Notes under the pieces: generated by a model
The model's database searches: none
What the model saw: only the letters and a program-made list of their open reading frames with translations
Told to the model about the DNA's origin: nothing
Shown: one piece after another, positions 3,907 through 58,518 of the stretch
Numbering within the stretch: position 1 is the first letter of the stretch
How the letters are laid out: each line of letters starts with the position of its first letter
Made by a program: the position numbers and the translations under genes
Source: Agromyces badenianii
GTDB lineage: Bacteria; Actinomycetota; Actinomycetes; Actinomycetales; Microbacteriaceae
Assembly: GCF_003070885.1 (NCBI RefSeq)
Contig: NZ_CP028913.1
Span: 2,046,001 to 2,110,000, forward strand
DNA: 64,000 nucleotides
Direction: 5' to 3'

Positions 3907-4985
3907 TCATCTTCATCTACGGAACGACGGCCGAGGCGATCAAGATCGCCCCGGTTGCCCGGCGCCTCGGCGAACGGGGAGTCCCGTACCAGCAGTGGAT
4001 CACGCAGCAGCACACCGAGTCCCTGCGCAAGGTGATCCCCCAGCTCGGCCTTCCCGAGCCGGACCGGGTCATCGCGAACGGGAACAAGGGAGAACCGCTG
4101 ACCTCGCCTCTCCAGATGGTGGGGTGGGTAATGACCGTCTTCCGCTGGGGGCTGGCCAACATCCGGGGCATCCGCAAGACCCTGCCGAAGGGATCGGCGG
4201 TCATCGTCCACGGCGACACCGTCACCACCGTCTTGGGAACGCTGATCGGGCGCCGCCTCAGGGTGCCGGTCGCCCATGTGGAAGCGGGCCTCCGGTCGGG
4301 CAACTGGCGCCACCCCTTCCCGGAGGAACTCGACCGTCGCATCGTCGGCCGCCTCGCCGACATCCACTACGTGCCGTCGGCGGAGGCCGCGCACAACCTC
4401 GCCGGCCGGAAGAACGTCGTGAACACGCACGGAAACACGGCTAAGGACGCGGTCCTCGACACGCGTACGGGAGAGCAGCAGACGGAGGTACCCTATGGCC
4501 TGGTCCTCCTCCACCGTTTCGAGTTCATCTCGAACCGGGCTCTCGTGCGGGAGACGCTCGAGACACTCGACGCACACAGCCCGGTCGAACTCCGCGTCAT
4601 CGTGGACTCGTACTCGCAGGACGCCGTCGTCCAGACCATCGAGGAGCTCGGTCTCGAGAGGTTCGTCGTCATGCCGAAACTCGAGCACGGCCGATTCGTG
4701 GCTGCGCTTCGCTCAGCCACATTCATCGTGACGGATTCCGGCGGTATCCAGCAGGAGTCCGCGGTCGTCGGTACGCCGACTCTCGTCCACCGGAAGACGA
4801 CCGAGAGCGCCGAAGGCATCGGCACCAACGTCGTCTTGTCGGGCTGGGACTTCGGCGTCCTGAGGGAATTCCTGTCCGACTACGAGTCCCACCGTGTCGT
4901 GGACCCCGATGCTGGGGCGTCTCCATCCGACATCATCGTGGACGACCTCTTCGCTCGCGGGATCGCGGTGAGCCGAGTCGGCTGA
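3903..4985 (+). CDS. wecB: UDP-N-acetylglucosamine 2-epimerase (non-hydrolysing type)
   Basis: Interconverts UDP-GlcNAc and UDP-ManNAc in the cytoplasm, supplying ManNAc-type residues for a polysaccharide. The 360-residue protein is close to the usual 370-380. Family blocks are visible: HGDT (about 103-106), HVEAGLRSGN (125-134), HPFPEELDRR (137-146) and TDSGGIQQES near the C-terminus, which binds the UDP phosphates. The N-terminus IYGTTAEAIKIAPV differs slightly from the usual GTRPE motif, as in some UDP-GlcNAc/GalNAc epimerase subgroups. The ATG overlaps the upstream glycosyltransferase stop, so the two are co-translated. Epimerase family membership is firm; the exact substrate is less so. 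Confidence 0.88.
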   Translation: MIIFIYGTTAEAIKIAPVARRLGERGVPYQQWITQQHTESLRKVIPQLGLPEPDRVIANGNKGEPLTSPLQMVGWVMTVFRWGLANIRGIRKTLPKGSAVIVHGDTVTTVLGTLIGRRLRVPVAHVEAGLRSGNWRHPFPEELDRRIVGRLADIHYVPSAEAAHNLAGRKNVVNTHGNTAKDAVLDTRTGEQQTEVPYGLVLLHRFEFISNRALVRETLETLDAHSPVELRVIVDSYSQDAVVQTIEELGLERFVVMPKLEHGRFVAALRSATFIVTDSGGIQQESAVVGTPTLVHRKTTESAEGIGTNVVLSGWDFGVLREFLSDYESHRVVDPDAGASPSDIIVDDLFARGIAVSRVG

Positions 4986-4992
4986 CGTCGCC

Positions 4993-5880
4993 TTATCGGG
5001 CGTCCAACGCGATCCACTCCGGCTTGAGCAAGTCGGACTTGGCCGTGCCTGTCTGGGTCCAGGGGCGCGGCGCGACGACGGGCACGTCGCGACCACCCTG
5101 GTGCTGCATGAGGGCGGCCGCCCACCAGCTGAAGCTCGAATTGCTCATGATCATCGCCTTGCCGAGGGCCATTGCCTTGAGGGTCGCCCAGGTCCCGAGG
5201 ACGCCGTCCTCCACGAACTCGAACTCGCCGTCGGAACCGGACAGCTCGGTCTTGACGAGGTCGACCGAATCGGAGAACACGCGCACAGGCAGGTCGACTC
5301 CCTGGCTGCGCAATTGCCGGATGGCTCGCTGCGCATAGGCGACCGTCGCGACGAACTGCCGGTCGGGAGAGACGTCGAGGTAGTCGCCCCGGCGGAGGTG
5401 CAGCGTGATCACGTCGCGCCGCGCCAACTCCCCGATAATCTCGGTCTCCCGGGTCGATTCATCGACCGCCAGCATTCTCGACAGGATGTCGGACTCGATA
5501 CCCTCGAAGTACTTCGGCGACTGGAAGTAGCCGAAGAGCGTGGTGCCGGGACGGATCGCGTCGATGGTGGACTGGTAGGCATCGCCGTCGCGCTCGAAGA
5601 ACGTGCGCCCCCATGGTCGCTTCGGCACGGGCAACACCCGCTCCGCGTTCAGGCGCAGCGCGCGCCAGGAACTCTCCGACGGCGTCAGAACCCGACCGGG
5701 ATGGTCGATGGCCTGCAGGCCGAGGCGGTGCGTCCCCTGCACCGAGAAGTGCGAGACGTCGAGGTACAGCGGACACTCGAGCCGATTCGACTGCTCCCAT
5801 GCGGCCGCCAGGATGAAGAGCTGGTTGCCCAGCCCGCCCATAACGTAGCCACAAACACCGTCGTCACCGACACGACTCAT
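4993..5880 (-). CDS. GT11 family alpha-1,2-fucosyltransferase-like enzyme
   Basis: The 295-residue protein shows the GT11 signature GGLGNQLF (15-22), the GDP-binding HLRRGDY motif (161-167) and the C-terminal SNSSFSWWAA block. GT11 enzymes transfer L-fucose from GDP-fucose, typically in alpha-1,2 linkage to galactose. Related enzymes also occur in colitose-containing O-antigen loci. The nearby GDP-sugar genes on the other strand (gmd, SDR and a ColD-like gene) supply the expected donor, so the natural sugar may be fucose or colitose. The ATG overlaps the stop of the flippase gene by 4 nt, making a two-gene operon on the minus strand. Confidence 0.88.
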   Translation of the reverse strand: MSRVGDDGVCGYVMGGLGNQLFILAAAWEQSNRLECPLYLDVSHFSVQGTHRLGLQAIDHPGRVLTPSESSWRALRLNAERVLPVPKRPWGRTFFERDGDAYQSTIDAIRPGTTLFGYFQSPKYFEGIESDILSRMLAVDESTRETEIIGELARRDVITLHLRRGDYLDVSPDRQFVATVAYAQRAIRQLRSQGVDLPVRVFSDSVDLVKTELSGSDGEFEFVEDGVLGTWATLKAMALGKAMIMSNSSFSWWAAALMQHQGGRDVPVVAPRPWTQTGTAKSDLLKPEWIALDAR

Positions 5881-7148
5881 CTATTCTCTCCCTGTGAAGC
5901 TGTCCGCGCGTGAGCGAACTCGACCGCGATGAAGGCGATCAGGACGACCGAGCCGATCACCGCCTGCGAGACCAGCAGCGCTCCGACATCGGGGATCACC
6001 GACGTGAACGCGATCCACTGACCGGCAACTGATAGTACCAACACCGTCGCGGCCACCTTGGAGGCGGACGCGGTCATCCGGATGAGCATGCCCTGCGCGA
6101 CGATCCACGGCAGGTAGGCGAGCGACACGGGCACGAGGAGCTCGGCCGCCTGCTCGTAGGCCGACCCGTAGAGCAGGGAGATCACCAATGGCCCGAACAA
6201 CAGGAAGAAGAGCACGAGGGCGATTCCGGTCACTGCGGCCAGGCCCGCCGTGGCGAGGACGCCGAGTCGCATCAGCCGGGGGTTGTCGCGGTTTCGAACA
6301 AAACGCGGCAGCAGGTAGAGCGAGAGGGTGGATGGCAGGAGGAACGCCGCCTTCACCAGCACTGCCACGGCCGCGTACTGGCCGGCGAGCGTCTCGGACG
6401 CACCGGCCCGCAGAAGCAGGACGTCGGAACTGGTCAGCCAGGCGAACGAGACCGTCAGGACGATGATGGTCAGGCCGGCGGCCGAGAAAGCGCCCTGGAC
6501 CGGTCGGGGGATGTTCCTAGCGGCCCACCAGGCCCCGATCAGGGCGACCAGGGTCGCAGCGACGACGGCCCCGATGACACCGGACAACCCGAGCCCGATG
6601 AGGACGACGAGGAAGGTCAGGGCGACTCGGATGACCAGGGACTGCGTCGACCACCACACGGCGGAAGCCACTCGGCCCGATCCCTGGAGCAACCCGAGGT
6701 ACTGCGCGAAGAGGAAGCTCAGCGGGATGCACGCCGCCGCCGCGAGGATCACCCAGACCTGTGTGTCGAGCGATTGCGCCAGCACTGGCGACAACGCTGC
6801 GACGACGATGAGGCCGATCCCCCCGAGGACGAGCGCGTCGACCGGCCACCGATGCCATCGCTTCTCGGCTCCATCCGTCGTGAGAGCGGAGGCCGTGTGC
6901 ACCGTCACCAGGTTCTGCAGCGATGAGCTCCCGATGGCCGCCACGTTGACGACGACGAAGAACGCCGCCAGCAGGCCGAACTCGGCGGGGGCGAGGTACC
7001 TCGCGCTGACGATCTGGAATACGAATGAGGCGAGCACGCCGACGATCGTCGCGATCGCGATCGCTGAGAGTCCCTTGGCGTGAGTTCTGAGGTGTCCCCC
7101 GCCCCCCTCGGCCGGGGCGTCGTGGTCTCGCTCTGATCCGTCGGTCAT
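5877..7148 (-). CDS. Wzx-like polysaccharide flippase (MOP superfamily)
   Basis: A polytopic membrane protein of about 423 residues with 11-12 hydrophobic helices. It begins with the GLSAIAIATIVGVLASFVFQ helix and the YLAPAEFGLLAAFF segment typical of oligosaccharide flippases. It would move undecaprenyl-linked repeat units across the membrane. The chosen ATG at 7148 has GAGGA about 13 nt upstream. The GTG at 7232 lies directly behind a possible -10 (TAGTGT, 7233-7238) and adds an unlikely proline-rich extension. No Wzy polymerase is recognisable nearby, while an ABC-type exporter lies 6 kb away, so the locus may make two polymers. Confidence 0.82.
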   Translation of the reverse strand: MTDGSERDHDAPAEGGGGHLRTHAKGLSAIAIATIVGVLASFVFQIVSARYLAPAEFGLLAAFFVVVNVAAIGSSSLQNLVTVHTASALTTDGAEKRWHRWPVDALVLGGIGLIVVAALSPVLAQSLDTQVWVILAAAACIPLSFLFAQYLGLLQGSGRVASAVWWSTQSLVIRVALTFLVVLIGLGLSGVIGAVVAATLVALIGAWWAARNIPRPVQGAFSAAGLTIIVLTVSFAWLTSSDVLLLRAGASETLAGQYAAVAVLVKAAFLLPSTLSLYLLPRFVRNRDNPRLMRLGVLATAGLAAVTGIALVLFFLLFGPLVISLLYGSAYEQAAELLVPVSLAYLPWIVAQGMLIRMTASASKVAATVLVLSVAGQWIAFTSVIPDVGALLVSQAVIGSVVLIAFIAVEFAHARTASQGENR

Positions 7149-7297
7149 CGTCGTGCGGGCATCCTCACGGGGATCGGGGACGTGGAACGGACGCGTCGGT
7201 AGGCCGATGTGTCTCGGGAAGTGCAGATCCACACACTACAGGCCGTTGCAGCGTGAGCACCGGGAGGCCGCCCGCCCCGCGCCGTTGCCTCATCGAC

Positions 7298-7310: not shown

Positions 7311-8252
7311 ATGCGCGTACTTCTCACCGGCGGCAATGGCATGCTCGCCCGGTCCATAGCTGATGCCTGGACCAGAATCGGCCGTCAGGACGAACTGATT
7401 CCGGTCACCCGCGCCGACGGGGACCTCCGGGATGCCGAAGCGGTTCGCCGCATCATGGCAGACGTTCGGCCCGACGCTGTCATCCACGCGGCCGCCCGCG
7501 TCGGCGGTATCGCAGCCAACATGGCCGACCCTGCCGGATTCCTGATGGACAACCTGCGTTTGGACTCCAACGTCCTGAGCGCGTCGCTCGACTCGTCCGT
7601 CGAGCGGTTCGTCTACTTCGGCAGCTCGTGCATGTATCCGAAGGACTACCGCCAGCCGCTGGTCGAGTCCGACGTCCTGGCCGCCCCTCTCGAGCCGACG
7701 AACGAGGGCTACGCCATCTCCAAGATCGCCGCCGCGCGATTCTGCGAGTACGTGTCCAGCCAGTTCGGACACGCCTACCGCGTGATCATCCCCTCGAACC
7801 TCTACGGCCCCAATGACGACTTCGACCTCCAGAGGGGTCACCTCGTCGCGGCCAGCATCGCCAAGGCCCATGCGGCCAAGACCAGCGGCGCATCATCCAT
7901 CGACGTGTGGGGAGACGGAACCGCGCGTCGCGAGTTCACCTACGTGGGCGACCTGGCCGGGTGGCTCGTCGAGAACCTCGATCGGCTCGCAGAATGGCCC
8001 GCTCTGATGAACGTCGGCAAGGGCGAGGACCACAGCATCCTCGACTACTACCGGGCAGCGCTCACAGCGGTCGACTACGAGTGCGAGCTGGTGACGGATC
8101 CCTCGAAGCCGGCCGGCATGCACCAGAAGCTCATGGACTCGTCCGTCGCGGCGACGTTCGGCTGGACCCCGACCACGTCCCTCGAGGACGGCATGACGGC
8201 CTCCTACGACGCGTACCTGGATTCACTCGCAACCACGGAAAGCGCAGGCTGA
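7311..8252 (+). CDS. fcl: GDP-L-fucose synthase-like SDR epimerase/reductase (possibly ColC-like)
   Basis: An extended SDR of 313 residues. It has the NADP-binding GGNGMLARS (7-15), the catalytic GSSCMYPK and YAIS-K (Tyr-x3-Lys) motifs, and PSNLYGPNDDFD with WGDGTARREF, all diagnostic for GDP-fucose synthase. This enzyme epimerises C3 and C5 and reduces C4 of GDP-4-keto-6-deoxymannose. The colitose enzyme ColC is a close relative acting on the 3-deoxy intermediate. Because a ColD-like gene follows within 4 bp, ColC activity is a real alternative. Sequence alone cannot separate the two. It is the first gene of a tight operon with that gene and gmd. Confidence 0.85.
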   Translation: MRVLLTGGNGMLARSIADAWTRIGRQDELIPVTRADGDLRDAEAVRRIMADVRPDAVIHAAARVGGIAANMADPAGFLMDNLRLDSNVLSASLDSSVERFVYFGSSCMYPKDYRQPLVESDVLAAPLEPTNEGYAISKIAAARFCEYVSSQFGHAYRVIIPSNLYGPNDDFDLQRGHLVAASIAKAHAAKTSGASSIDVWGDGTARREFTYVGDLAGWLVENLDRLAEWPALMNVGKGEDHSILDYYRAALTAVDYECELVTDPSKPAGMHQKLMDSSVAATFGWTPTTSLEDGMTASYDAYLDSLATTESAG

Positions 8253-8255
8253 ACG

Positions 8256-9428
8256 ATGTCATCCATCCGATTCCCGCTGGCAACGACGACGTGGGATTCC
8301 CACGAATACGACGCCATCCAGCGCGTCGTCGAGAGCGGCCGATTCACCATGGGACCCGAGGTCAGGGCCTTCGAGGAGGAGTTCGCGGCCTCCGTCGGCA
8401 GCCGGCACGCCGTGATGGTCAACTCGGGCAGCAGCGCCAACCTCATCGCGCTCACCGCGCTCGTGACGGCTCCGCATATCGACCTGAATCCCGGTGATGA
8501 GGTCATCGTCCCCGCCGTCTCCTGGGCGACGACCTACTACCCCGTCCAGCAGTTGGGCCTCCGGCTGCGCTTCGTCGATGTCGACCTCGACACGCTCAAC
8601 ATCGATCTCGCTGCCGTCGAGGCCGCGATCACGCCGGCGACCAAGGCCGTGCTGGCCGTCAACCTGCTCGGGAACCCGGCAGACCTGATCGGCCTGGCCG
8701 CCCTGTGCGCTCAGCACGGACTGATCCTGATCGAGGACAACTGCGAATCCCTCGGTGCCTCCATCGACGGCAAGCAGGCGGGCACCTTCGGCATCGCCGG
8801 AACGTTCAGCTCGTTCTTCTCTCACCACATCTCCACAATGGAGGGCGGGCTGGTCGTGACGGATGACGACTACGTCCACCAGGCCGCCGTCTCTCTGCGT
8901 GCGCATGGGTGGACACGTGAGCTGCCGTTCGACAACCTCGTACACCCGAAGACCGGAGACAGCTTCGACGACCTCTTCCGGTTCGTGCTGCCCGGCTACA
9001 ACGTGCGGCCGCTCGAGATGTCGGGCGCCATCGGGCGCCAGCAGATCCGCAAACTGCCGGGCTTTGTCGAGGAGCGGCGCCGCAACGCGACTCGCTTCAC
9101 GGAGGCGTTCACCGGCAACGACAACGTGCGCATTCAGCAGGAGAACGGCGAGAGCAGCTGGTTCGGGTTCGCCCTCGTGCTCGAGGGCCCGCTGTCGGGT
9201 CGCCGATCTGAGGTCGTCCGGGCGCTGACCGCTGCCGGGATCGAGAGCAGGCCGATCGTCGCGGGCAACTTCACCCGCAATCCCGTCATGCGCCACCTCG
9301 ACGCGATCGTGCCCGACGCACTCCCCGCGGCCGACCGGATCCACGACGACGGCCTGTTCGTCGGAAATCACCACTTCCCCATCGACGACGAGATCGGCAT
9401 CCTCGCCGAGGTCTTCGACAACCTATGA
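8256..9428 (+). CDS. DegT/DnrJ/EryC1-family PLP enzyme with His in place of catalytic Lys (ColD-like 3-dehydratase)
   Basis: A fold-I PLP enzyme of 390 residues. PLP-contact segments are present: NSGSSAN (56-62), [11 protein letters not shown] (86-96) and EDNCES (160-165). The position that should hold the Schiff-base lysine reads [12 protein letters not shown], with His190/His191 and no lysine. Histidine there marks GDP-4-keto-6-deoxymannose 3-dehydratase (ColD) and the related RfbH/E1 dehydrases, which remove the C3 hydroxyl instead of transaminating. The neighbouring GDP-mannose 4,6-dehydratase would make exactly the ColD substrate. An aminotransferase role (perosamine type) is therefore unlikely. 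Confidence 0.82.
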
Positions 9429-9501
9429 CGGTGGTCACTCTCCGCGCGCCATGGCGCCTGCGGTGAGCGGCGGCCCCGGACAGAAAGCCATTCGATCTGA
9501 C

Positions 9502-10524
9502 ATGGAACCCAAGAGAGCATTCATCACCGGAATCACCGGGCAGGACGGCAGCTACCTCGCTGAACTGCTGCTGTCGAAGGGCTACGAGGTGCACGGCCTC
9601 ATCCGCCGCGCCTCCACCTTCAATACAGTCCGCCTCGATCACCTCTTCCAGGATCCGCACGACCCCGACCATCGCCTCACACTCCACTACGGCGACCTGA
9701 CCGATGGTTCGCGCCTGGTGACGTTGATGGACAGCATCCGACCCCAAGAGATCTACAATCTCGCAGCGCAGTCCCACGTGCGGGTGAGCTTCGACGAGCC
9801 CGAGTACACGGGCGACACCACGGGTCTCGGGACGACCCGCCTCCTGGAGGCGATGAGGCTCGCCGGGCTGGAGAGCCGGTACTACCAGGCGAGCAGCTCG
9901 GAGATGTTCGGCGCGACCCCGCCGCCGCAGAATGAGTCGACGCCATTCTACCCACGATCCCCCTACGGTGCCGCGAAGGTCTACTCCTACTGGATGACCA
10001 AGAACTACCGTGAGGCCTTCGGGCTCTTCGCCGTGAACGGCATCCTCTTCAACCACGAGTCGCCGCGCCGCGGTGAGACCTTCGTGACCCGGAAGATCAC
10101 ACGCGCCGCTGCGCGGATCGCCGCCGGAGTGCAAAGCGAGCTCTACATGGGCAACCTCGATGCCGTGCGCGACTGGGGCTACGCGCCCGAGTATGTCGAG
10201 GCGATGTGGCGGATGCTCCAGCACGACACGCCGCAGGACTACGTCGTTGCTACGAACACAGCGTACACAGTGCGCGACTTCCTCTCCTTCGCCTTCTCCC
10301 GGGTCGGGCTCGAATGGGAGAAGTACGTCCGGTTCGACGAACGTTATATCCGACCGACGGAGGTGGACGCCCTCGTCGGCGACTACGGACTCGCCGAGCG
10401 CGAGCTCGGATGGACCCCTTCCGTCACGACTCCCCGACTCGCTGAGCTCATGGTCGATCACGACGTCAAGGCGCTCGAAGGTGGAGGATCCCACCTGACG
10501 GATACCGTCGACTGGCCCGTCTGA
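9502..10524 (+). CDS. gmd: GDP-mannose 4,6-dehydratase
   Basis: Converts GDP-mannose to GDP-4-keto-6-deoxymannose using bound NADP. The 340-residue protein shows [15 protein letters not shown] (NADP site), [23 protein letters not shown], the catalytic Tyr-x3-Lys in SPYGAAK, and [10 protein letters not shown], all hallmark Gmd motifs. ATG 9502 is chosen because the protein then begins just before the Rossmann strand; the in-frame alternative at 9451 adds 17 atypical residues. It lies 73 bp after the ColD-like gene. Substrate would come from manC at 57-58 kb. A long hairpin terminates the unit. Confidence 0.93.
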
Positions 10525-10595: not shown

Positions 10596-13025
10596 TCAGG
10601 GAACCGTGACCGTCGTACAACCCAGCAGGACGTTTCCGCCTGCACCGTTGTTGATCGCGTACGCACAGACGTTGTGCGTCCCGGCTGTCGTCGTGACCGT
10701 CGTCCAGAATCCGTGCGTCGGCCCGTACGCCGGGTAAACGTTGCCCACGTCGGTTCGAGCGAGGTTGGCGGTGATACCCACACTGAACGAGTCGACGTAG
10801 ACGTGGACGGCGATCGGCGCCGACGTGTCGGGGTCGATGGCCCATCCGCCGACGTCGATCGCACCGGGCTTGGCGATCGCGGCTTCCAGGCCGCCGAACG
10901 GCGCACGGCCGAGATCGTTGATGTAGTGCCCGGGCACGATCACCGTCGTGCAGCCGAGCAGCGCGGGACCGCCGGGTCCCGTGTTGATGCCGTAGGCGCA
11001 TACGCTGTGGGGCCCGGGGGCGGCAGGAACCTGCTGGGAGTATCCGTGCGCGGCCCCGTACCCGGGGTATGCGGCCCCGACGTCAGCACGGTCGAGCGAT
11101 GCCGTCGTCGCGACGCTGAAGGAGTCGACGTAGACGTGCACCTGGATGGATGCCGCCGTGTCGGGGTCGATTGCCCAACCCGATGCGGTCACTCCCGTCG
11201 CGTCGACGCTCACACCCTCGAGGTACCCGATCGGCACGCGCCCCTTCTCCACGATCGGGGCCGTCACTTGGACCACGCGACAGCCGAGGAGCGAATTCCC
11301 GCCCGCCGCCGTGTTGATGCCGTAGGCGCACACGGTGTGCGTACCCGGCGACGCCGGCATGGTCGCTCCGAATCCGTGCTTCGTCCCGTTCGCGGGATAG
11401 ACGGCCGCCAAATCCGGACGTTCACCGTTCGCGACGACGGCCATGCTGAAGGAGTCGACGTAGACGTGCACCTGGATGGATGCGGCCGTGTCGGGGTCGA
11501 TGGCCCAGCCGGACACCTCGACCTGGCCGACGCCGCCCTTGATCACCTCGAGGTTGCCGACGGGCGCGCGGCCCTTCTCACTCAGTCCGGACGGGTCGGG
11601 GACAACCACCTGCATACAGCCCAACTGGACGTGTCCGCCCGGCCCGGAGTTGATGCCGTAGACGCAAACGGTGTGCGCTCCCGGAGCCGCCGGAACCGTT
11701 TGGCTGAAGCCGTGCTTGGTCCCGTACTCGCTGTACTGGCCGGGGATGGCCGTGGACGCCGCGTTGGCCGTATAGGCCGCGCTGACCGAGTCGACGTAGA
11801 TGTGGATCGTCGACGGCTCGACGGTGTCGGGGTCGAGGGACCATCCGATCGCCTGGATGCCTGACGTGGTCGTCTTGACCTCGGTCAGGGCGCCCACCGG
11901 CGAACCGCTCTTCGCCGTGCGGGGGAAGCAGCCGAGCAGGAGGTTTCCGCCGGGCCCCACGTTGATCGCGTACACGCAGATCGACGTGTTGCCCTCGCCC
12001 TGTGCCGGAACGGACACGTCGAAGCCGTGCAGCCGGCCGTTGCCGTAGGCCGCGGCAACGTCGTCACGCGGCAGGTTCGCCGGGTGCGCCGAGCTGACCG
12101 ATCCGACGTACACGTGGATCGACAGGGATGCCGACGTATCGGGGTCCATGGCCCAGCCTGCCACCCGGAACACGCCCGGCTTCGGCTCGACGAGCTCGAC
12201 GTTCCCGATCGGGTTGTTGCGAACCGTGTCGGTGGGCGAGCCGAACCAGTCGTTGTACATGCGCCAGAAGTTGCGGTTGCCATATGCGCTGCACGCATCC
12301 CCGGTGCCGTAGAGATTGTTGAGCGCCGCTGCATTCGGGGTATACGGCGTGTAGTAGTAGAGCGCAGCAGTCGCCTTATTCTGCACTCGCACGTCTTTCG
12401 TGCCGCAGGCTGCATTCGGGTGGTATCGCACCGCGTTGACCTCGCCGATGCGAATCGAGGTGAACGAGCCTCCGGGGTTGGTGTACCAGGTCAGCTGCCG
12501 ACCGGCGGCGAACACCTGGTTGAAGAAGCCGTAATAGGTGGAATCACAGGAGGACGTATCGGGGCATCCGTATCCCATCGCCTTCCGCATCACCCCATCG
12601 GACGGTGCGGAATCGGTGATCAGGCCCTGCTCCTTCTGGAGCGTAACCAGGATCACTTTGGCGCTCAGACCGCAAGCCTGCTGCACCTTGAAGATGATTC
12701 GCGCCGCTGATTCACCAGCCGCTCCCTGATACGTCGAACAAGTGCCGAAGCTCCAAGTCCGCGTCGGCGTGGTCTCCGTGTACCGCGGCAGGCAGTTCGA
12801 GTTCGCACAACTCCCGACCTTCTGCTCCAAGAATCGCTGGATCTCCGCCTCCGACATGGCAGAGCCGTTGTAGAAGTTGGCGTCACTGATGATGTACCCG
12901 GGGTCGAACTCCGAGCCGGTCACCGCCGCGGCAGGTGCGGGCGCGACTGCGATCGGTACGATCGTTCCACCGACGACAGCCAGCACAGCGAAGAACGCCC
13001 ACGCGATTCTGGTCCTGATCGTCAA
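10596..13025 (-). CDS. Secreted protein with cysteine-rich N-terminal domain and five tandem WAxDPDT repeats
   Basis: The likely start is TTG at 13025, with GGAGG 9 nt upstream, giving 809 residues and a classical signal peptide (arginines, hydrophobic core, cleavage near APAAA). Residues about 38-268 form a cysteine-rich domain containing ILVTLQKEQGLIT, which loosely recalls lysozyme or transglycosylase folds with a catalytic Glu; that is only a guess. Residues 272-809 are five repeats of 103-111 residues. Each has a PxG start, W-A/S-x-DPDT, a HVYVDS strand and two cysteines about 16 apart. Its place in the polysaccharide locus suggests glycan or wall binding. An ATG-like start at 13094 would disrupt the signal peptide. 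Confidence 0.8.
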   Translation of the reverse strand: MTIRTRIAWAFFAVLAVVGGTIVPIAVAPAPAAAVTGSEFDPGYIISDANFYNGSAMSEAEIQRFLEQKVGSCANSNCLPRYTETTPTRTWSFGTCSTYQGAAGESAARIIFKVQQACGLSAKVILVTLQKEQGLITDSAPSDGVMRKAMGYGCPDTSSCDSTYYGFFNQVFAAGRQLTWYTNPGGSFTSIRIGEVNAVRYHPNAACGTKDVRVQNKATAALYYYTPYTPNAAALNNLYGTGDACSAYGNRNFWRMYNDWFGSPTDTVRNNPIGNVELVEPKPGVFRVAGWAMDPDTSASLSIHVYVGSVSSAHPANLPRDDVAAAYGNGRLHGFDVSVPAQGEGNTSICVYAINVGPGGNLLLGCFPRTAKSGSPVGALTEVKTTTSGIQAIGWSLDPDTVEPSTIHIYVDSVSAAYTANAASTAIPGQYSEYGTKHGFSQTVPAAPGAHTVCVYGINSGPGGHVQLGCMQVVVPDPSGLSEKGRAPVGNLEVIKGGVGQVEVSGWAIDPDTAASIQVHVYVDSFSMAVVANGERPDLAAVYPANGTKHGFGATMPASPGTHTVCAYGINTAAGGNSLLGCRVVQVTAPIVEKGRVPIGYLEGVSVDATGVTASGWAIDPDTAASIQVHVYVDSFSVATTASLDRADVGAAYPGYGAAHGYSQQVPAAPGPHSVCAYGINTGPGGPALLGCTTVIVPGHYINDLGRAPFGGLEAAIAKPGAIDVGGWAIDPDTSAPIAVHVYVDSFSVGITANLARTDVGNVYPAYGPTHGFWTTVTTTAGTHNVCAYAINNGAGGNVLLGCTTVTVP
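10599..12212 (-). repeat. Five in-frame tandem repeats of about 310-333 bp
   Basis: The repeats encode residues 272-374, 375-485, 486-595, 596-706 and 707-809 of the secreted protein. Repeats 3 and 4 share about 39 identical bases (starting at 11115 and 11445, exactly 330 bp apart) and a further near-identical stretch, pointing to recent duplication or gene conversion within the array. Confidence 0.85.
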
Positions 13026-13034
13026 CGGTCCCCG

Positions 13035-13039
13035 CCTCC
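13035..13039 (-). promoter_or_regulatory. Shine-Dalgarno GGAGG deciding a TTG start
   Basis: On the minus strand GGAGG is followed by 9 nt and TTG (13025-13023). No other start near the signal peptide has a ribosome site. A TATTCT -10 candidate lies at 13075-13080 upstream. Confidence 0.6.
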
Positions 13040-13175
13040 CAAGAAATGCGCCGCAGCCCCCGCGAAGCACGTTCAGAATAGGACACGAACACATCGATCG
13101 GGGCCAGCGACACTCCTTCCGCGTTGCGCCCGCGGAGCACGCGGCCCACGCGGCACCTGATCAGGGATGACTCGG

Positions 13176-13181
13176 TAGGAT
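13176..13181 (+). promoter_or_regulatory. -10 box TAGGAT of the wzm-wzt operon
   Basis: TAGGAT about 35 nt before the wzm ATG, giving a short leader that carries the GAAGGA ribosome-binding site at 13208-13213. No -35 match is obvious. Confidence 0.4.
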
Positions 13182-13216
13182 CGTTGAGATCCCGATTGAC
13201 TGAATGTGAAGGACAG

Positions 13217-14131
13217 ATGAGCGAAGAGAGCGCGGCCGGCCCCGTACGAACGGTGCCCGAGCCTCTGCAGCGACTCGGACGGGACGCCTCCTTCGCGCGA
13301 GGCACTTGGTCCTCGTTCATCGAGGTGTTCGGGCGGCGCGAGCTTCTCGGTCGCCTCATCAGTCGCGAGATCCGAGCGAAGTACAAGAACAGCAGCCTGG
13401 GCATCGTCTGGTCGCTGATGCGCCCACTCGCTCAACTCCTCATCTACTACGTCGCCATCGGCCAGTTCCTCGGTGCCGCGCGTTCGATTCCCGATTTCGC
13501 GATCTTCGTCTTCACGGGTCTCACGGCGTGGGCCCTGTACTCCGAGATCATCACCGCCGGAACCAACTCCGTGGTCAACAACTCGGGCCTGGTCAAGAAG
13601 GTCTACCTTCCGCGCGAGATCTTCCCGCTCGCCGCCGTCGGCGCATCGTTGTTCAACTTCGCGGTGCAGTTCGGCATCCTGATCGTCGCGACCCTGGTGC
13701 TCGGTCGACCGCCGATCCACGCCGATCTGGCCTACCTCCCGCTCTCGGTCGCGCTGATCCTCGTGTTCGCGACCGCCCTCGCACTCGTCCTGTCCGCGCT
13801 CAACGTGTACCTCCGCGATGTCCAGCACCTCGTCGAGATCCTGCTGCTCGTGCTGTTCTGGGCCTCGCCCATCGTCTACTCGGTCGGATTCGTCCACACC
13901 GCGATCGGCGGCACCATCTGGGAGCAGCTCTACCTCGCCAACCCCGTCACGCTCGCCGTTCTCGGCATGCAGAAGGCGATGTGGATGGCCGGAACGACCG
14001 ACACCACTCAGTACTGGCCTGATGACCTCGCACTGCGCATGCTGGTTGCGACGGGCATCTGCCTGATACTGCTCTGGATCGCGCAGCGGATCTTCTCTCG
14101 CCTCCAGGCCAACTTCGCGCAGGAGCTATGA
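13217..14131 (+). CDS. wzm: ABC-2 polysaccharide export permease (Wzm-like)
   Basis: The 304-residue integral membrane subunit of an ABC exporter for complete lipid-linked polysaccharide. The amphipathic N-terminal region contains ELLGRLISREIRAKYKNSSL, then WSLMRPLAQLLIYYV, the usual ABC-2 entry segment. Six hydrophobic helices follow, with the LSALNVYLRDVQHLVEILL block typical of the family. GAAGGA lies 5 nt before the ATG. The stop overlaps the start of the ATPase gene (ATGA), as is normal for wzm-wzt pairs. Confidence 0.92.
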   Translation: MSEESAAGPVRTVPEPLQRLGRDASFARGTWSSFIEVFGRRELLGRLISREIRAKYKNSSLGIVWSLMRPLAQLLIYYVAIGQFLGAARSIPDFAIFVFTGLTAWALYSEIITAGTNSVVNNSGLVKKVYLPREIFPLAAVGASLFNFAVQFGILIVATLVLGRPPIHADLAYLPLSVALILVFATALALVLSALNVYLRDVQHLVEILLLVLFWASPIVYSVGFVHTAIGGTIWEQLYLANPVTLAVLGMQKAMWMAGTTDTTQYWPDDLALRMLVATGICLILLWIAQRIFSRLQANFAQEL

Positions 14132-15336
14132 CAACAATCACCGACCAGCCGCTCGTCCGCGCTGAGAACGTCTCGAAACGCTTCGTCCTGCACAAGGACA
14201 AGTCGCTCAAGGACCGGGTCCTGTACTGGGGGTCGCGCTCGAAGTCGCGCTCCGAGTTCCTCGCACTCGACGATGTCACCCTCGACATCGCACTCGGGGA
14301 GACCGTTGGACTGATCGGTCACAACGGCTCGGGCAAGAGCACGCTTCTGAAGGTCATCGGCGGCATCATCGAAGCCACATCCGGCGCCGTCTTCCGGCGA
14401 GGGCGGGTCGCTGCGCTCCTCGAACTCGGTGCGGGATTCCACCCCGACCTCTCCGGCCGCGACAACGTCTACCTGAACGCCGCGATCCTCGGGATGACGA
14501 CCGCGCAGACCGATGCCGTCTTCGACGACATCGTCGAGTTCGCGGGCATCGGGGAGTTCATCGACTCACAGGTCAAGTTCTACTCGTCGGGGATGTACGT
14601 GCGACTCGCGTTCGCCGTCGCCGTGCACTCCGACCCCGACCTACTACTCGTCGACGAGGTGCTCGCCGTCGGAGACGAGCCCTTCCAGTTGAAGTGCATG
14701 AACAAGATCCGGCAGTTCCAGAAAGAGGGGCGCACCATCGTCCTCGTCAGCCACTCCGCCGAGCAGGTTGCCGATGTCTGCACCCGCACGGTCGTCCTCG
14801 AAGGCGGCGTTGTCGTGCACGACGGAGACGTCGGCTCCGGCATCCGTATCCTCCGTGAGGGATACGAACGCGATCGCCTGGCAGCTGAGACCGTCGAGGT
14901 GGCGGCGCATCCGGCGGTGGAGATCCTCGGCGTCACCGCCACCACCCACGGCGATCAGCCGCTCGGGACCTCGCCGCTCGAACGCGGCACCGACCTCAAC
15001 ATCACCGTTCATGCACGTGTGAACTCCTCGGTCGAGTGGATCACCGGCTTCACACTGCAGACACCGCTCGGGCAGGCCGTCTACCGGCTCAATTCCGAAG
15101 GCCTCGATCTCGCGCTTCCCACCGAACCCGGCGAGTACGACGTGCGGTTCGAACTGCCAGCGACGAACTTCGGCACGAAGCGGCTGGTGATCAGCGCCGG
15201 GGCTACGACCACACAGGGTGAACCGATCACCCTGCTCGAACCTGCTGGCTTCCTCGACTACGCGGACGACCCCTTCGGAGCGGGAATGGTGCAGTTCGCT
15301 CCCCTCGGGTCGGTGGCGCCGACGACGGCGCGATGA
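14128..15336 (+). CDS. wzt: Polysaccharide ABC transporter ATP-binding protein with C-terminal carbohydrate-binding domain (Wzt-like)
   Basis: Residues 1 to about 240 form the nucleotide-binding domain: Walker A GHNGSGKST (64-72), signature FYSSGM (151-156) and Walker B LLLVDE (172-177), followed by the LAVGD loop. Residues about 250-402 form an extra beta-rich domain like the Wzt C-terminal domain, which recognises the modified non-reducing end of the exported glycan and so sets export specificity. It is coupled to wzm upstream and overlaps the following glycosyltransferase by 4 nt. The extra domain implies that chain length or capping is controlled before export. Confidence 0.93.
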   Translation: MTTITDQPLVRAENVSKRFVLHKDKSLKDRVLYWGSRSKSRSEFLALDDVTLDIALGETVGLIGHNGSGKSTLLKVIGGIIEATSGAVFRRGRVAALLELGAGFHPDLSGRDNVYLNAAILGMTTAQTDAVFDDIVEFAGIGEFIDSQVKFYSSGMYVRLAFAVAVHSDPDLLLVDEVLAVGDEPFQLKCMNKIRQFQKEGRTIVLVSHSAEQVADVCTRTVVLEGGVVVHDGDVGSGIRILREGYERDRLAAETVEVAAHPAVEILGVTATTHGDQPLGTSPLERGTDLNITVHARVNSSVEWITGFTLQTPLGQAVYRLNSEGLDLALPTEPGEYDVRFELPATNFGTKRLVISAGATTTQGEPITLLEPAGFLDYADDPFGAGMVQFAPLGSVAPTTAR

Positions 15337-16214
15337 GCACCCCCGCATCCGCTCGGCCGATCATCGCGATCCTCAGCGTCAGCTACGGATCCGCCAGCGA
15401 GATCGCGAGCATGCTCCGAAGCGTCCGCCGCGCGACCCAGCATCCCACGCTGCTGACAGTAGCGGACAACCTCCCGACCGCCGTCGGCACCGAAGATGCA
15501 GTCGTCCGTGCCGGCGGTCGATACACGCCGTTGCCCGACAATCCCGGCTACGGCGGAGCCATCAATGCCCTGGTTCGCAAGCTGCCGCCGTCGGTCGAGT
15601 GGATCATGGTCACGAACCCCGACGTGCTGTTCCACGATCATGCGATCGATCTGATGCTCGAGGCCGGCATCGCTGACGATCGCATCGGCGCCATCGGTCC
15701 GATGATCCTGAACGACGACGGCACGCTGTATCCGTCCGCGCGGTCGGTTCCAAGTCTCCGCACCGGTGTCGGACACGCGTTGTTCAGCGGCATCTGGCCG
15801 TCCAACCCCTGGACGCGTCGCTATCACTCGTCGCAGGCGACCGACCAAGCACGAGACGCCGGCTGGCTCTCAGGTTCGTGCGTGCTGGTGCGACGCACCG
15901 CCTTCGAAGATATCGCAGGCTTCGACGAGGACTTCTTCATGTACTTCGAAGACGTCGATCTCGGGTACCGTCTGGGCCGAGCTGGCTGGCGCAACCGGTA
16001 CGTCCCTGCGGCGCAGGTCACGCACTCAGGGGGCCACTCGACCACGACGGAATCCTCGGCGATGATCCGCGCCCATCACCGTAGTGCCGCGCGCTTCGTG
16101 GAGAAGAAATACCCTGGTCGGGCATACTGGCCCCTGCGCGCGCCGTTGCTGATCGGCCTCCGAATGCGCTCCCGGCTCGCGGAGCGTCGCGCTCGAAGCT
16201 CAAGAGCCGACTAG
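15333..16214 (+). CDS. wbbL: GT2 rhamnosyltransferase (WbbL-like)
   Basis: A soluble GT2 enzyme of 293 residues with ILSVSYGS at the N-terminus, [17 protein letters not shown] as DxD equivalent, and the C-terminal GSCVLVRR...[15 protein letters not shown] block where ED is the catalytic base region. It resembles mycobacterial WbbL, which adds rhamnose from dTDP-rhamnose to GlcNAc-diphospho-polyprenol to start a wall polymer linker. dTDP-rhamnose genes flank it directly. It is coupled to wzt by ATGA. Its TAG stop interlocks with the TAG stop of convergent rmlA. The acceptor could also be a repeat-unit sugar. Confidence 0.82.
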
Positions 16215-17074
16215 CGGGCGATCAGGTGCCGCAGGTACGCACCGTACCCGCTCTTCACAAGAGGTCCGGCCAGTCCCTCGAGTTCGTCGTCATCGATCCA
16301 CCCGGCACGCCAGGCGATCTCCTCGATGCATCCGATCTTGAAGCCCTGGCGGTCTTCGATCACGCGTACGTACTCCGAAGCCTGCATCATCGACTCGAAT
16401 GTGCCGGTGTCGAGCCACGCCGTTCCGCGATCCAGCACCTGAACGTGCAGCTTGCCTTGACGCAGGTACCGTTCGTTGACCGTGCTGATCTCCAGCTCGC
16501 CACGATCACTCGGCTCGATGGTCTTCGCGATCTGCACGACCGAGTTGTCGTAGAAATACAGTCCCGGAACCGCGAAATTGCTCTTCGGCACTGCCGGCTT
16601 CTCCTCGATGGAGATGGCGGTGTTGTCCTCCGAGAACTCGACCACGCCGTACGCGGTCGGGTTGCTCACCTGGTACGCGAAGATCACGGCACCGTCGATG
16701 TTCGCGTTCGCGCGCAGTGCTGAGCCGAGTCCGGTTCCGTGGAAGATGTTGTCGCCGAGGACGAGCGCCACCGAATCGTCGCCGATGAACTCCTCACCGA
16801 TGATGAATGCCTGCGCGAGCCCATCGGGGCTCGGTTGCACTGCGTACTCGATGGAGATTCCGAGGTCAGAACCGTCCCCGAGCAGGGCACGGAACTGCGA
16901 GTTGTACTCGGGAGTGGTGATGATCAGGATCTCCTTGATCCCGGCCATCATCAGCGTCGACAGGGGGTAGTAGATCATCGGCTTGTCGTAGATCGGCATC
17001 AGTTGCTTCGAGATGCCCTTGGTGATCGGCCACAGCCGAGTGCCGGAGCCGCCGGCGAGGATGATGCCGCGCAT
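16211..17074 (-). CDS. rmlA: Glucose-1-phosphate thymidylyltransferase
   Basis: First enzyme of dTDP-rhamnose synthesis, joining dTTP and glucose-1-phosphate. The 287-residue length is standard. It has [16 protein letters not shown] (pyrophosphorylase signature), [28 protein letters not shown] (metal-binding Asp) and ISIEEKP. It lies 1 bp downstream of rmlC on the same strand, so the two are co-transcribed from the promoter in front of rmlC. The two other rml genes are on the opposite strand 2 kb away. Confidence 0.96.
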
Positions 17075-17075
17075 G

Positions 17076-17684
17076 TCAGTCCTTCGCGTTCAGTGAGTCG
17101 TAGTATGCCCGGGCCGCCGCCCATGTCGGCAACAGGCCGGAGGCAGCAGCCTCGTGCAGGCCGGGCGCCGCGGTGTCTTTCGGTGAGAGCAGCAGGTCAC
17201 CGGCGGCCTCGGGGAACACGAGACCGACATCCGGGTCGGTCGGATCGATCCCGTGCTCTCGCTCAGCGTTGAAGGTCGAGGTGACGAGGTAGCTCACGGT
17301 CGCATCATCGGTGAGTGCGACGAAGCAGTGCCCGAGGCCTTCAGCGATGTAGATCGCCCGTCGATCGACGTCATCGAGGAGCACTGAGTCCCATTCACCG
17401 AACGTCGGCGAACCGACCCGGATGTCGATCACGAAGTCCAGTACGGCACCACGGTTGGCGGTGACGTACTTCGCCTGGCTCGGCGGAACATCGGCGAAGT
17501 GGATGCCGCGTACGACTCCCCGCTTCGAGACGGAGCTGTTGCCCTGCGCAAGAGCGAGTGGGTGACCGATCGTCTCGGCGAGTCGGTCGAAGCGATACCA
17601 CTCGAAGAACACGCCACGATCGTCTGGGAACTGCGTGGGCGTGATCTCGTAGCTGTCGGGAATGCTGAGTTCGCGGATCTGCAC
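17076..17684 (-). CDS. rmlC: dTDP-4-dehydrorhamnose 3,5-epimerase
   Basis: A 202-residue cupin that inverts C3 and C5 of dTDP-4-keto-6-deoxyglucose. Characteristic blocks are [30 protein letters not shown] with the catalytic His, [18 protein letters not shown], and [15 protein letters not shown] at 17684 is preferred: a TAGGCT box ends 8 nt upstream, so the transcript would be leaderless. A TTG at 17693 lies inside that box. The C-terminus is slightly longer than in enteric enzymes. Confidence 0.93.
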
Positions 17685-17692
17685 AGGACACA

Positions 17693-17698
17693 AGCCTA
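17693..17698 (-). promoter_or_regulatory. -10 box TAGGCT of rmlC-rmlA
   Basis: TAGGCT on the minus strand, 8 nt before the GTG of rmlC, consistent with a leaderless rmlCA transcript. Confidence 0.5.
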
Positions 17699-17742
17699 CT
17701 CGACCGTCGCTGGGCGGGATGCATCCCGCATCTTCGACCGCG

Positions 17743-19800
<2,058 letters not shown>

Positions 19801-24751: not shown

Positions 24752-26116
24752 CTACTCCTCGGTCGGCTCAGGCGACGGCGGATACACCGCCTGCTGCACG
24801 AGCTGGCGGATGTACTCGTAGTCGGGATCTTCCGGATCCACGCCGTTCTCAGGGACGAGCTCGACGTCGACGATCGGCAATTGCTTCGTCTTGCCTGCGA
24901 GGTTGACGAAGTAGCCGAGACTGCCCTGCGGAACGTCCGTCTTCACGACCTGAGAGCCCGCGGCAGCGATCTCCTGGAACTTCGAGAGCACGTTCGCGGG
25001 GTTGAACTGCGCGAGCACCGCCTCTTGGATCTGGCGCTGACGGGCCATGCGGTCGTAGTCGCTCGTGCCATGGCGCGAACGCGCGTACCAGAGCGCGTGA
25101 TAGCCGTCGAGGTGCTGGTCCCCCGCGGGAATCCACTCGGCGACCGTCGTGAATGTCTCGTCGGCGTGGATCGGCACGTCTTCGGGCACCGTGACGGTGA
25201 CGCCGCCGAGCGCATCGATGAGCTGCTGGAAGCCCGCCATGTCGATGAGCGCGTAGTACTGGATCTCGAGCCCGGTGATCGCCTCTGCGGCATCCCGCAT
25301 CGCCTCGATGCCGGGTTCACTGCCCTGCGCGACGGCATCGGGGTACATCTCGGGGCTCATCAGCTCGACCTCGGTGTAGATCGAGTTCAGCAGGCAGACG
25401 TCGACCTCGCAGCCGTCGATCGACCCGTAACCCTCGGGATACAGCTCCGCGAGCGAGGTGCCCTCGGGGAACGGCACATCCTCCATGTTGCGAGGCAGGC
25501 CGATGGTCACGGCTTGCCCGGTCTCGGCGTCGACGCTGATGACCCTGATGCTGTCGGGGCGCAGCCCGTCGCGATCAGGCCCGGCGTCACCGCCGAGGAG
25601 CAGGAAGTTGTACTTGCCGTCGACGGGTTCCTTCGATGGCCCGGCCACGAACACCGATGAGAGGAACCCGCTCGCGGTCGTCGCGACGTAGGCGCCGTAC
25701 GCCGCGGTGCCGGAGAGTGCGACCATCACGAGCGTCGTGAGCCCGGCGACCCACGCCCGGGCCGACGGTGCGGTCTTCACGAGCCGCACGAGCCGCAGCG
25801 TGTCTAGGGTCAGGATCACCCAGAGCACCGCGTAGAACGCCAGCAGGGCGGCGACGACCCACAGGGTGATCGTGGTCGAGAACACCGTGTACAAGGTCGC
25901 CGGCCACAGCAGCCAGACGACGAGGGCCACGATCGCGAGGGTCCAGAGCACGAGCGTCGCCCCGAGCCCGAAGCGACCGAGGCGCCGACTGCCGGCGAGC
26001 ACCTGGGGCGCACCGGGGATCAGGAAGTTAAGCACGACGAGCCACCACGCGCGACGGGTCATGACCGTGCGCGAGGCGGCATCCGGGTAGCGGATCGGGC
26101 TGGCGGCGAGCGTCAT
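24752..26116 (-). CDS. LytR-CpsA-Psr (LCP) family wall-polymer ligase
   Basis: About 454 residues. Four hydrophobic helices occupy the first 150 residues, an unusually large membrane part. The extracellular LCP domain follows: [21 protein letters not shown] (Asp/Arg pyrophosphate site), [30 protein letters not shown] and the [22 protein letters not shown] signature. LCP enzymes move polymer from undecaprenyl diphosphate to peptidoglycan on the cell surface. Its position beside the glycan genes fits. The ATG overlaps the purE stop by 4 nt, so it is co-translated with purE. M. tuberculosis has an LCP gene at the equivalent place. Confidence 0.93.
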
Positions 26117-57306: not shown

Positions 57307-58425
57307 TCAGAGCACGTCGTTGGACCCGCCGAGCCGAAGAGCGTCGACGACCGCTTTGACCCGCTGGGCATGCTCGCTCGTCGTGACGAGGAGCGCATCG
57401 GGCGTGTCGACCACGACGATATCGTGCACGCCGATCAGGCTGATCACCCGCTTCGAGCGGCTCACGACGATGCCGCTCGACGCATCGGAGAGCACGCGCG
57501 CGTTCTCGCCGAGGATCGCGAGTTCGCCGGAGCGGCCCGCGGTGTTGAGCTTGGCGAGCGAGGCGAAGTCGCCCACGTCGTCCCACGCGAAGTGACCGCG
57601 GATTACCGCGAGTCGGCCGGCCGCCGCCGCTGGTTCGGCGACCGAGTAGTCGATCGCGATCTTCTCGAGGCGCGGCCAGATGCGATCGACGGCCGGTCCT
57701 CGTGTGGCCGGGTCGTCCCATTCCGCGGCCAGCTCGATGAGACCGGCATGCAACTCGGGCTTCGTGCGGGCGATCTCGGCGAGCAGCGCGTCGGCGCGCG
57801 CGATGAACATGCCGGCGTTCCAGAGGTGGGCGCCGCCGGCCAGGTAGCTCTTGGCCGTCGCGAGGTCGGGCTTCTCGACGAAGCTCGCGACCGCCTCGAC
57901 GTGGGCGGCGCCCTCGACCACGAGGGGGGCGCCGCACTCGATGTAGCCGAAGCCGACGGCGGGCTCGGTGGGGGTGATGCCGATCGTCGCGATGTACCCG
58001 GCCCGGGCGGCCGCCACGGCATCGGCGACGGCGGCCCGGAAGAGCGAGGAGCCCGAGATCACATGGTCGGCGGCGAACGAGCCGATGATCACGCCGGGCT
58101 CGCGGCGCTCGAGGATCGCGGCGGCGAGGCCGATCGCGGCCGTCGAGTCGCGCGGCTCGCTCTCGAGCACGACGTTGTGGTCGGCGAGGCCCGGCAGCTG
58201 CTCCTCGACGGCCGCGCGGTGGGCGCGCCCCGTGACGACCATGATGCGGTCGTCGCCCGAGAGCGGAGCGAGCCGATCCCACGTGTCTTTCAGGAGCGTC
58301 TGACCCGAGCCCGTGAGGTCGTGCAGGAACTTCGGAGCGTCGGCTCGAGAGAGCGGCCAGAGCCGCGAGCCTACGCCGCCGGCGGGGATGACGCTGTAGA
58401 AACCGTCGATCGGGGTTGATTCCAT
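57307..58425 (-). CDS. manC: Mannose-1-phosphate guanylyltransferase
   Basis: Makes GDP-mannose from GTP and mannose-1-phosphate. The 372-residue protein has VIPAGGVGSRLWPLSR (nucleotide loop), SEPRDSTAAIGLAA, IGSFAADHVI, FVEKPD and LWNAGMFIAR, all standard for GDP-mannose pyrophosphorylases. It lacks the C-terminal isomerase domain of bifunctional forms. It is the only GDP-mannose source seen in the window and would feed gmd. ATG 58425 follows a TACGCT box by 6 nt; upstream frame to 58512 crosses the promoter. Confidence 0.93.
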   Translation of the reverse strand: MESTPIDGFYSVIPAGGVGSRLWPLSRADAPKFLHDLTGSGQTLLKDTWDRLAPLSGDDRIMVVTGRAHRAAVEEQLPGLADHNVVLESEPRDSTAAIGLAAAILERREPGVIIGSFAADHVISGSSLFRAAVADAVAAARAGYIATIGITPTEPAVGFGYIECGAPLVVEGAAHVEAVASFVEKPDLATAKSYLAGGAHLWNAGMFIARADALLAEIARTKPELHAGLIELAAEWDDPATRGPAVDRIWPRLEKIAIDYSVAEPAAAAGRLAVIRGHFAWDDVGDFASLAKLNTAGRSGELAILGENARVLSDASSGIVVSRSKRVISLIGVHDIVVVDTPDALLVTTSEHAQRVKAVVDALRLGGSNDVL

Positions 58426-58431
58426 CAGGAC

Positions 58432-58437
58432 AGCGTA
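58432..58437 (-). promoter_or_regulatory. -10 box TACGCT, leaderless start of manC
   Basis: TACGCT on the minus strand, 6 nt before ATG 58425, in the divergent region shared with sdhC. Confidence 0.45.
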
Positions 58438-58504
58438 ACCGCAGCAGCACCGGGCCATATGGGTGGCGGATGCCGCGGCATCCGGTATCTCGACGTCGAG
58501 AGAG

Positions 58505-58518
58505 TTAGGCACGCCTAA
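58505..58518. promoter_or_regulatory. DtxR/IdeR-like palindrome upstream of sdhC
   Basis: TTAGGCACGCCTAA, a perfect 14-bp palindrome, 24 bp upstream of the sdh -10 box, hence over or next to the -35. TTAGG/CCTAA half-sites resemble iron boxes, but the spacing is shorter than the 19-bp consensus. Iron control of an Fe-S and haem complex would make sense. Confidence 0.4.

Follow-up and report, generated by a model that had tools for sequence, protein, structure and literature searches.

The analysed window (64,000 nucleotides) covers bases 2,046,001-2,110,000 of the 3.05 Mb genome of Agromyces badenianii. Within it, we studied a block of three intact open reading frames (ORFs) at positions 7311-10524, all on the + strand, which encode a short-chain dehydrogenase/reductase (SDR), a pyridoxal 5'-phosphate (PLP) enzyme and a GDP-mannose 4,6-dehydratase (gmd). 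The intergenic gaps are 3 bases (SDR/PLP gene) and 22 bases (PLP gene/gmd), i.e., the arrangement is operon-like. Judging from the sequence, we consider it quite probable that this block makes GDP-L-colitose (colitose being 3,6-dideoxy-L-xylo-hexose).

The PLP enzyme matches the structures of ColD over its full length (phmmer; 52% identity, E 3e-132), which rules out a chance match. Its functional His is H190, the first His of the SHH motif, which aligns with H188 of ColD in the phmmer alignments. The respective column holds Asn or Lys in the chains 3b8x (H188N), 2r0t and 3gr9 (H188K S187N), and Lys in 5/5 other DegT proteins compared. A preliminary description of the block had proposed that the Schiff-base Lys is replaced by His (His190/191). 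The alignment with the ColD chains confirms this, finds no Lys at the Schiff-base position and narrows the catalytic residue to the first of the two His. Together with a ColD tree (39 of 107 rows) and the fold, the sequence thus supports the identification of the PLP enzyme as ColD made there.

For Gmd, the identity is likewise supported by sequence, tree and fold. The protein exceeds the cut-off of its model (TIGR01472, 500 vs. 415 bits), as expected from the earlier annotation, and is 52% identical to Gmd of E. coli O55. Since the model match starts at residue 21, the true gmd start may be an internal ATG. The manC gene reported at 57 kb was also recovered: both PF00483 and PF22640 are over their cut-offs, TIGR01479 reaches 249 bits (below the cut-off of 373 of that bifunctional model), and the protein is 96% identical to one from Agromyces hippuratus. 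Agromyces also accounts for the majority of the named proteins among the 120 matches listed for ManC, in keeping with a host in or close to this genus (Microbacteriaceae, Gram-positive). We found neither a second Gmd (next-best match 63 bits) nor another close Fcl-type SDR (next match 38 bits) in the genome, and another GDP-fucose maker is therefore not likely to be encoded there.

Next, we assessed whether the SDR, described as GDP-fucose-synthase-like, is a ColC or an Fcl. It scores 254 bits against E. coli O55 ColC (39% identity) and 215 bits against E. coli Fcl (38% identity), while the Fcl equivalog model yields 296 bits for a cut-off of 500. No curated ColC model was among the profile-search results for the SDR. 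The protein keeps the S/Y/K triad and the C107/H177 dyad; in GDP-fucose synthase, such a Cys/His pair provides base and acid for the epimerisation at C3 and C5 (PMC12362431, PMC7949155). Residues separating ColC from Fcl were also considered, but the three differing columns are not known to have a role and were not used as evidence.

In an unrooted tree of 78 of the 107 distinct SDRs (thinned; the truncated sequences L015, L044, L120 and L142 were left out), a 7-row clade (100/100) unites E. coli Fcl with six family proteins and excludes the window SDR. The latter is placed among the ColD-linked SDRs with that of Cellulomonas chitinilytica as a near neighbour. This placement implies that the window SDR is not an Fcl, without showing a sister relation to E. 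coli ColC. That is, the earlier assignment holds insofar as the SDR belongs to the ColD-linked class outside the Fcl clade, from which we infer that it acts as a ColC. Two SDRs without a listed ColD match (L143, L144) also sit among the ColD-linked SDRs of this tree and speak against a clean ColC/Fcl split. They stem from genomes of 1.4 and 1.6 Mb, are ColC-like with Ala for Cys and a long branch, and no ColD was found in the fetched stretch.

We also studied the distribution of ColD (presence called at E 1e-100 in the genome samples). It is found in 28/398 Microbacteriaceae genomes (14/85 genera) and in 3/396 genomes drawn from the phylum, each including the window's genome. In all 28 family loci the SDR adjoins ColD (at most 84 bases apart), and Gmd is within about 1.5 kb in 22 of them (23 with a more permissive cut-off). 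Among named genomes, a scan confirmed at least 577 relatives, of which we analysed the best 80. These include Cellulomonas, Cryobacterium, Microbacterium, Agromyces cerinus, Plantibacter flavus, Arthrobacter, Mycolicibacterium, Kineococcus and Streptomyces as well as many Proteobacteria and some archaeal bins. Of these 80 loci, 74 have the SDR at most 300 bases from ColD, and in six from Paracoccus the distance is 2.5-2.8 kb; the fetched stretch includes Gmd in 66 loci. Since ColD and this SDR class travel together in nearly every ColD locus, we regard the class as ColC-like. For the genus as defined by the database, the family sample includes nine further genomes, none of which has ColD, while named Agromyces with ColD relatives are A. 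larvae (73%) and A. cerinus (66%). Given this patchiness, the ColD block may have been acquired laterally.

The ColD-linked SDRs are not uniform with regard to the epimerase Cys. Of 42 distinct actinobacterial sequences, 15 keep it and 27 have another residue (26 Ala, 1 Val; Table 1), and all replaced actinobacterial rows present in the 78-row tree fall in one clade (100/99). The window SDR is of the Cys type and outside this Ala clade. Among the 56 other ColD-linked SDRs, the Cys is replaced by Thr in eight and by Asn in one. In eight loci (L064-L066, L070, L072, L077, L079, L085), ColD is accompanied by an SDR of the Thr type (SATVYP motif); they belong to seven archaeal bins and one Rhodobiaceae-labelled bin, and no Gmd was found in their fetched stretches.

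The two classes also differ in the presence of a GT11 glycosyltransferase, as found beside the window block. In family genomes, GT11 occurs with 4/8 Cys-type vs. 0/19 non-Cys SDRs (Fisher p 0.004; one of the 28 could not be assigned), and in named loci with 13/55 vs. 0/24 (p 0.007; one of the best 80 untyped), where both p-values overstate the case because related genomes are not independent. Both search rules were loose (whole genomes: PF01531 at E 1e-8; named loci: tblastn of the window GT11 with at least 60 bits, covering up to 8 kb on each side). At family level, co-occurrence of GT11 and ColD is modest: four of the 14 GT11 genomes (among 398) have ColD, each within about 20 kb or less of it (hypergeometric p 0.012, or 0.051 if the genome of the window is excluded). 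We thus put more weight on the linkage of GT11 to the Cys type, which itself carries phylogenetic dependence.

This pattern suits two products, i.e., L-colitose for the Cys class and a D-configured 3,6-dideoxyhexose for the Ala class. As a tentative extension, it is possible that Actinobacteria harbour two ColD pathways: one in which the Cys class yields GDP-L-colitose and works with GT11, and one in which the Ala clade has lost the C5 base, such that ColD and a pure C4 reductase would form a GDP-3,6-dideoxy-D-hexose, e.g., GDP-D-tyvelose. No activity is detectable for C116A of human GDP-fucose synthase (PMC12362431). An RmlC-like epimerase beside non-Cys SDRs was found among 15 named loci only in L052, as a weak match of 52 bits at a distance of about 6 kb to the SDR; flanks were read by Pfam in two loci (10 ORFs each), and an epimerase elsewhere in these genomes is possible. 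Such a sugar is not known to arise by a route other than that via CDP. Tyvelose has been named as a wall sugar of Agromyces. If the proposal is true, the Ala class represents a GDP route to a CDP-route sugar. The split in the epimerase Cys provides a test, at sequence level, of which 3,6-dideoxyhexose might be produced by a given strain.

Several observations weigh against L-colitose as the product of the window block. In the structure model of ColD, the active-site loop (residues 189-195) has a predicted local distance difference test (pLDDT) score below 50. Percent identity was dropped as a discriminator between ColC and Fcl, since 39 and 38% are too close. The window GT11 is 25% identical to that of E. 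coli O55, which is presumably WbgN, and E. coli WbgN reportedly transfers not only colitose but also fucose (PMC12409901, PMC11987014). Furthermore, several glycosyltransferases and two export routes at the locus allow for more than one acceptor and carrier polymer. Finally, a rooted SDR tree (32 rows plus Gmd and RmlB as very distant outgroups) joins Fcl with the Gram-negative ColCs (98/97) and leaves the actinobacterial SDRs outside. In the approximately unbiased test on this tree with its very distant outgroup, monophyly of the ColD-linked SDRs as a whole is not rejected (p 0.27).

The position of Fcl nearer to the Gram-negative ColCs lowers our confidence in colitose and raises that in an SDR without C5 epimerisation, for which the product would be a GDP-3,6-dideoxy-D-hexose (tyvelose-type, D-arabino). 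For such a product speak the rooted tree, which does not show a closer relation of the actinobacterial SDRs to E. coli ColC as compared to Fcl, and the Cys replacement in 27/42 actinobacterial sequences. Fcl-like Campylobacter reductases with Thr/His or Tyr/Arg for Cys/His show no epimerisation, and restoring the pair in DdahC (T110C) did not gain epimerase activity (PMC7949155), so the dyad alone is no proof of epimerisation. Still, the window SDR retains Cys107 and His177 and has a GT11 neighbour, which is found only with Cys-type SDRs, and we consider a D-sugar unlikely for this locus. An even smaller chance is given to a GDP-L-fucose pathway of Gmd and GDP-fucose synthase, for which the PLP gene in between would be unrelated. 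Besides the 38% identity to Fcl, it draws on the fucose reported for the wall of Agromyces aureus (PMC5217419) and on the four of ten GT11 family genomes without ColD that have an Fcl-type SDR about 22 kb or less from GT11 (Fcl-type SDRs were examined in part of the ten); such neighbours are expected since the GT11 family uses either donor. Against it stand the placement of the SDR outside the Fcl clade, its score far below the Fcl cut-off, and the pairing of ColD with this SDR class in nearly every ColD locus.

That the PLP enzyme is an iron-sulphur 3-dehydrase of the E1/RfbH type acting on CDP sugars is very improbable: E1 is the second-best family by score (186 bits) and the RfbH model yields 267 bits, but the latter is below its cut-off of 423, the protein has only two Cys (C151, C163) while E1 has four for its cluster (PMC8987622), and the neighbour is Gmd rather than a CDP-glucose dehydratase. 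Several public ColD homologues carry the E1-type name CDP-6-deoxy-D-xylo-4-hexulose-3-dehydrase, which could be taken to favour this assignment; the features of the window protein do not support the name, and for some homologues it looks wrong. An aminotransferase of the GDP-perosamine synthase type is just as hard to credit, given His190 where other DegT proteins have Lys.

Returning to GDP-L-colitose, the locus provides candidates for each step (Table 1). ManC would supply GDP-mannose, which Gmd would convert to GDP-4-keto-6-deoxy-D-mannose. The ColD enzyme would then use pyridoxamine 5'-phosphate, with the acid/base role of the usual Lys taken over by His190, to remove the C3 hydroxyl and release ammonia. 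Next, the ColC-type SDR would invert C5 by means of Cys107/His177 and reduce C4 with NADPH. The neighbouring GT11 probably moves colitose onto a lipid-linked glycan, to be carried out by Wzx and/or the Wzm/Wzt exporter and possibly coupled to the wall by the LytR-CpsA-Psr (LCP) ligase. The earlier proposal of GT11 as colitosyltransferase stands with regard to the family and the gene linkage to colitose genes, which make this role likely; the transfer itself is a prediction. A surface or wall glycan that contains rhamnose and bears colitose would be in keeping with the locus, and the sugar is probably placed on a polysaccharide of the surface or wall. Possible wall attachment is suggested by the nearby LCP-type ligase gene and the export genes.

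Table 1. Features of the window (strand and length as called) and loci with SDRs lacking the epimerase Cys.
Feature	Position	Strand	Length	Profile or remark
GT11 glycosyltransferase, likely colitosyltransferase	4993..5880	-		PF01531, 77 bits
Wzx-type flippase	5877..7232	-		PF13440 and PF01943
colC-like SDR, predicted GDP-L-colitose synthase (C5 epimerase / C4 reductase)	7311..8252	+	313 aa	
ColD-type PLP enzyme	8256..9428	+	390 aa	catalytic His190
gmd, GDP-mannose 4,6-dehydratase	9451..10524	+	357 aa as called	TIGR01472
Wzm/Wzt-type ABC polysaccharide exporter, two genes	13124..15336	+		PF01061; PF00005; PF14524 below cut-off
dTDP-rhamnose genes rmlA (-), rmlC (-), rmlB (+)	16211..19800			TIGR01207, TIGR01181 over cut-off
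LytR-CpsA-Psr ligase, possible wall attachment	24752..26116	-		PF03816, 88 bits (cut-off 24.6)
manC, mannose-1-phosphate guanylyltransferase (GDP-mannose supply)	57307..58512	-		TIGR01479, PF00483, PF22640
Ala/Val-type SDRs adjoining colD	L016-L028, L030-L035, L048-L050, L052, L055, L057, L058, L060, L061			

Profile searches of the window proteins also revealed several further glycosyltransferases; for rmlC, TIGR01221 is just below its cut-off (146 vs. 156). A WecB-related Epimerase_2 protein is encoded at 3897-4985 (+; 151 bits vs. the WecB cut-off of 210). The gmd gene is directly followed by an opposite-strand gene (10596-13094) for an 832-aa repeat protein (GWAIDPDT...VHVYVDS), for which no Pfam family matched. 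Left of the window, Pfam identifies an O-antigen-ligase/polymerase-type gene and further glycosyltransferases. The 18 kb on this side (L174) hold a DUF7657/DUF7654 protein (L174:7677-9716, -) and a Wzy_C protein (L174:2640-3998, +), i.e., the polysaccharide locus extends beyond the window.

The colitose pathway is already known, and reviews assign the sugar to Gram-negative O antigens (PMC8987622, PMC11987014). The news is the host group, and it is common to many relatives. In the open-licence literature searched, including the topics dideoxyhexose, glycopolymer and tyvelose, the excerpts available did not report colitose from any Gram-positive. The preliminary description was right about the enzymes, and the sugar is probably colitose. 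Its view of a notable Gram-positive locus holds for the gene set, but the locus is less singular than assumed, as ColD is scattered through Microbacteriaceae and other Actinomycetota. Given this scatter and the intact Agromyces gene set, Gram-positive surface glycans probably carry 3,6-dideoxyhexoses, which routine wall-sugar lists may miss.

With regard to known systems, the window protein has its catalytic His at the same place as the E. coli ColD crystal structures (2gms, 3b8x, 2r0t, 3gr9), while it is 52% identical to them and known here from sequence and model. E. coli O55:H7 (L038, NC_013941) has the same gene set of ColD (52% identity to the window), ColC (39%), Gmd (52%), ManC and GT11 (25%). 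The window colD, used as a DNA query, had no match in the E. coli genomes searched; the O55 genes were located in the annotated chromosome, where ColD and ColC are named by family only and were labelled by place and homology. In contrast to the window, they belong to a Gram-negative O-antigen cluster, do not form one block, and serve another host and polymer. In the ColD loci of the Ala type (e.g., L052 of Agromyces cerinus and L055 of Microbacterium oxydans), gmd, SDR and colD are together as in the window, but the SDR is without the epimerase Cys and GT11 was not found there. Cellulomonas chitinilytica (L039) shows the same five-gene arrangement of GT11, Wzx, colC, colD and gmd with identities of 55, 47, 75, 77 and 85%, while the rest of its locus differs, with another DegT and other sugar genes.
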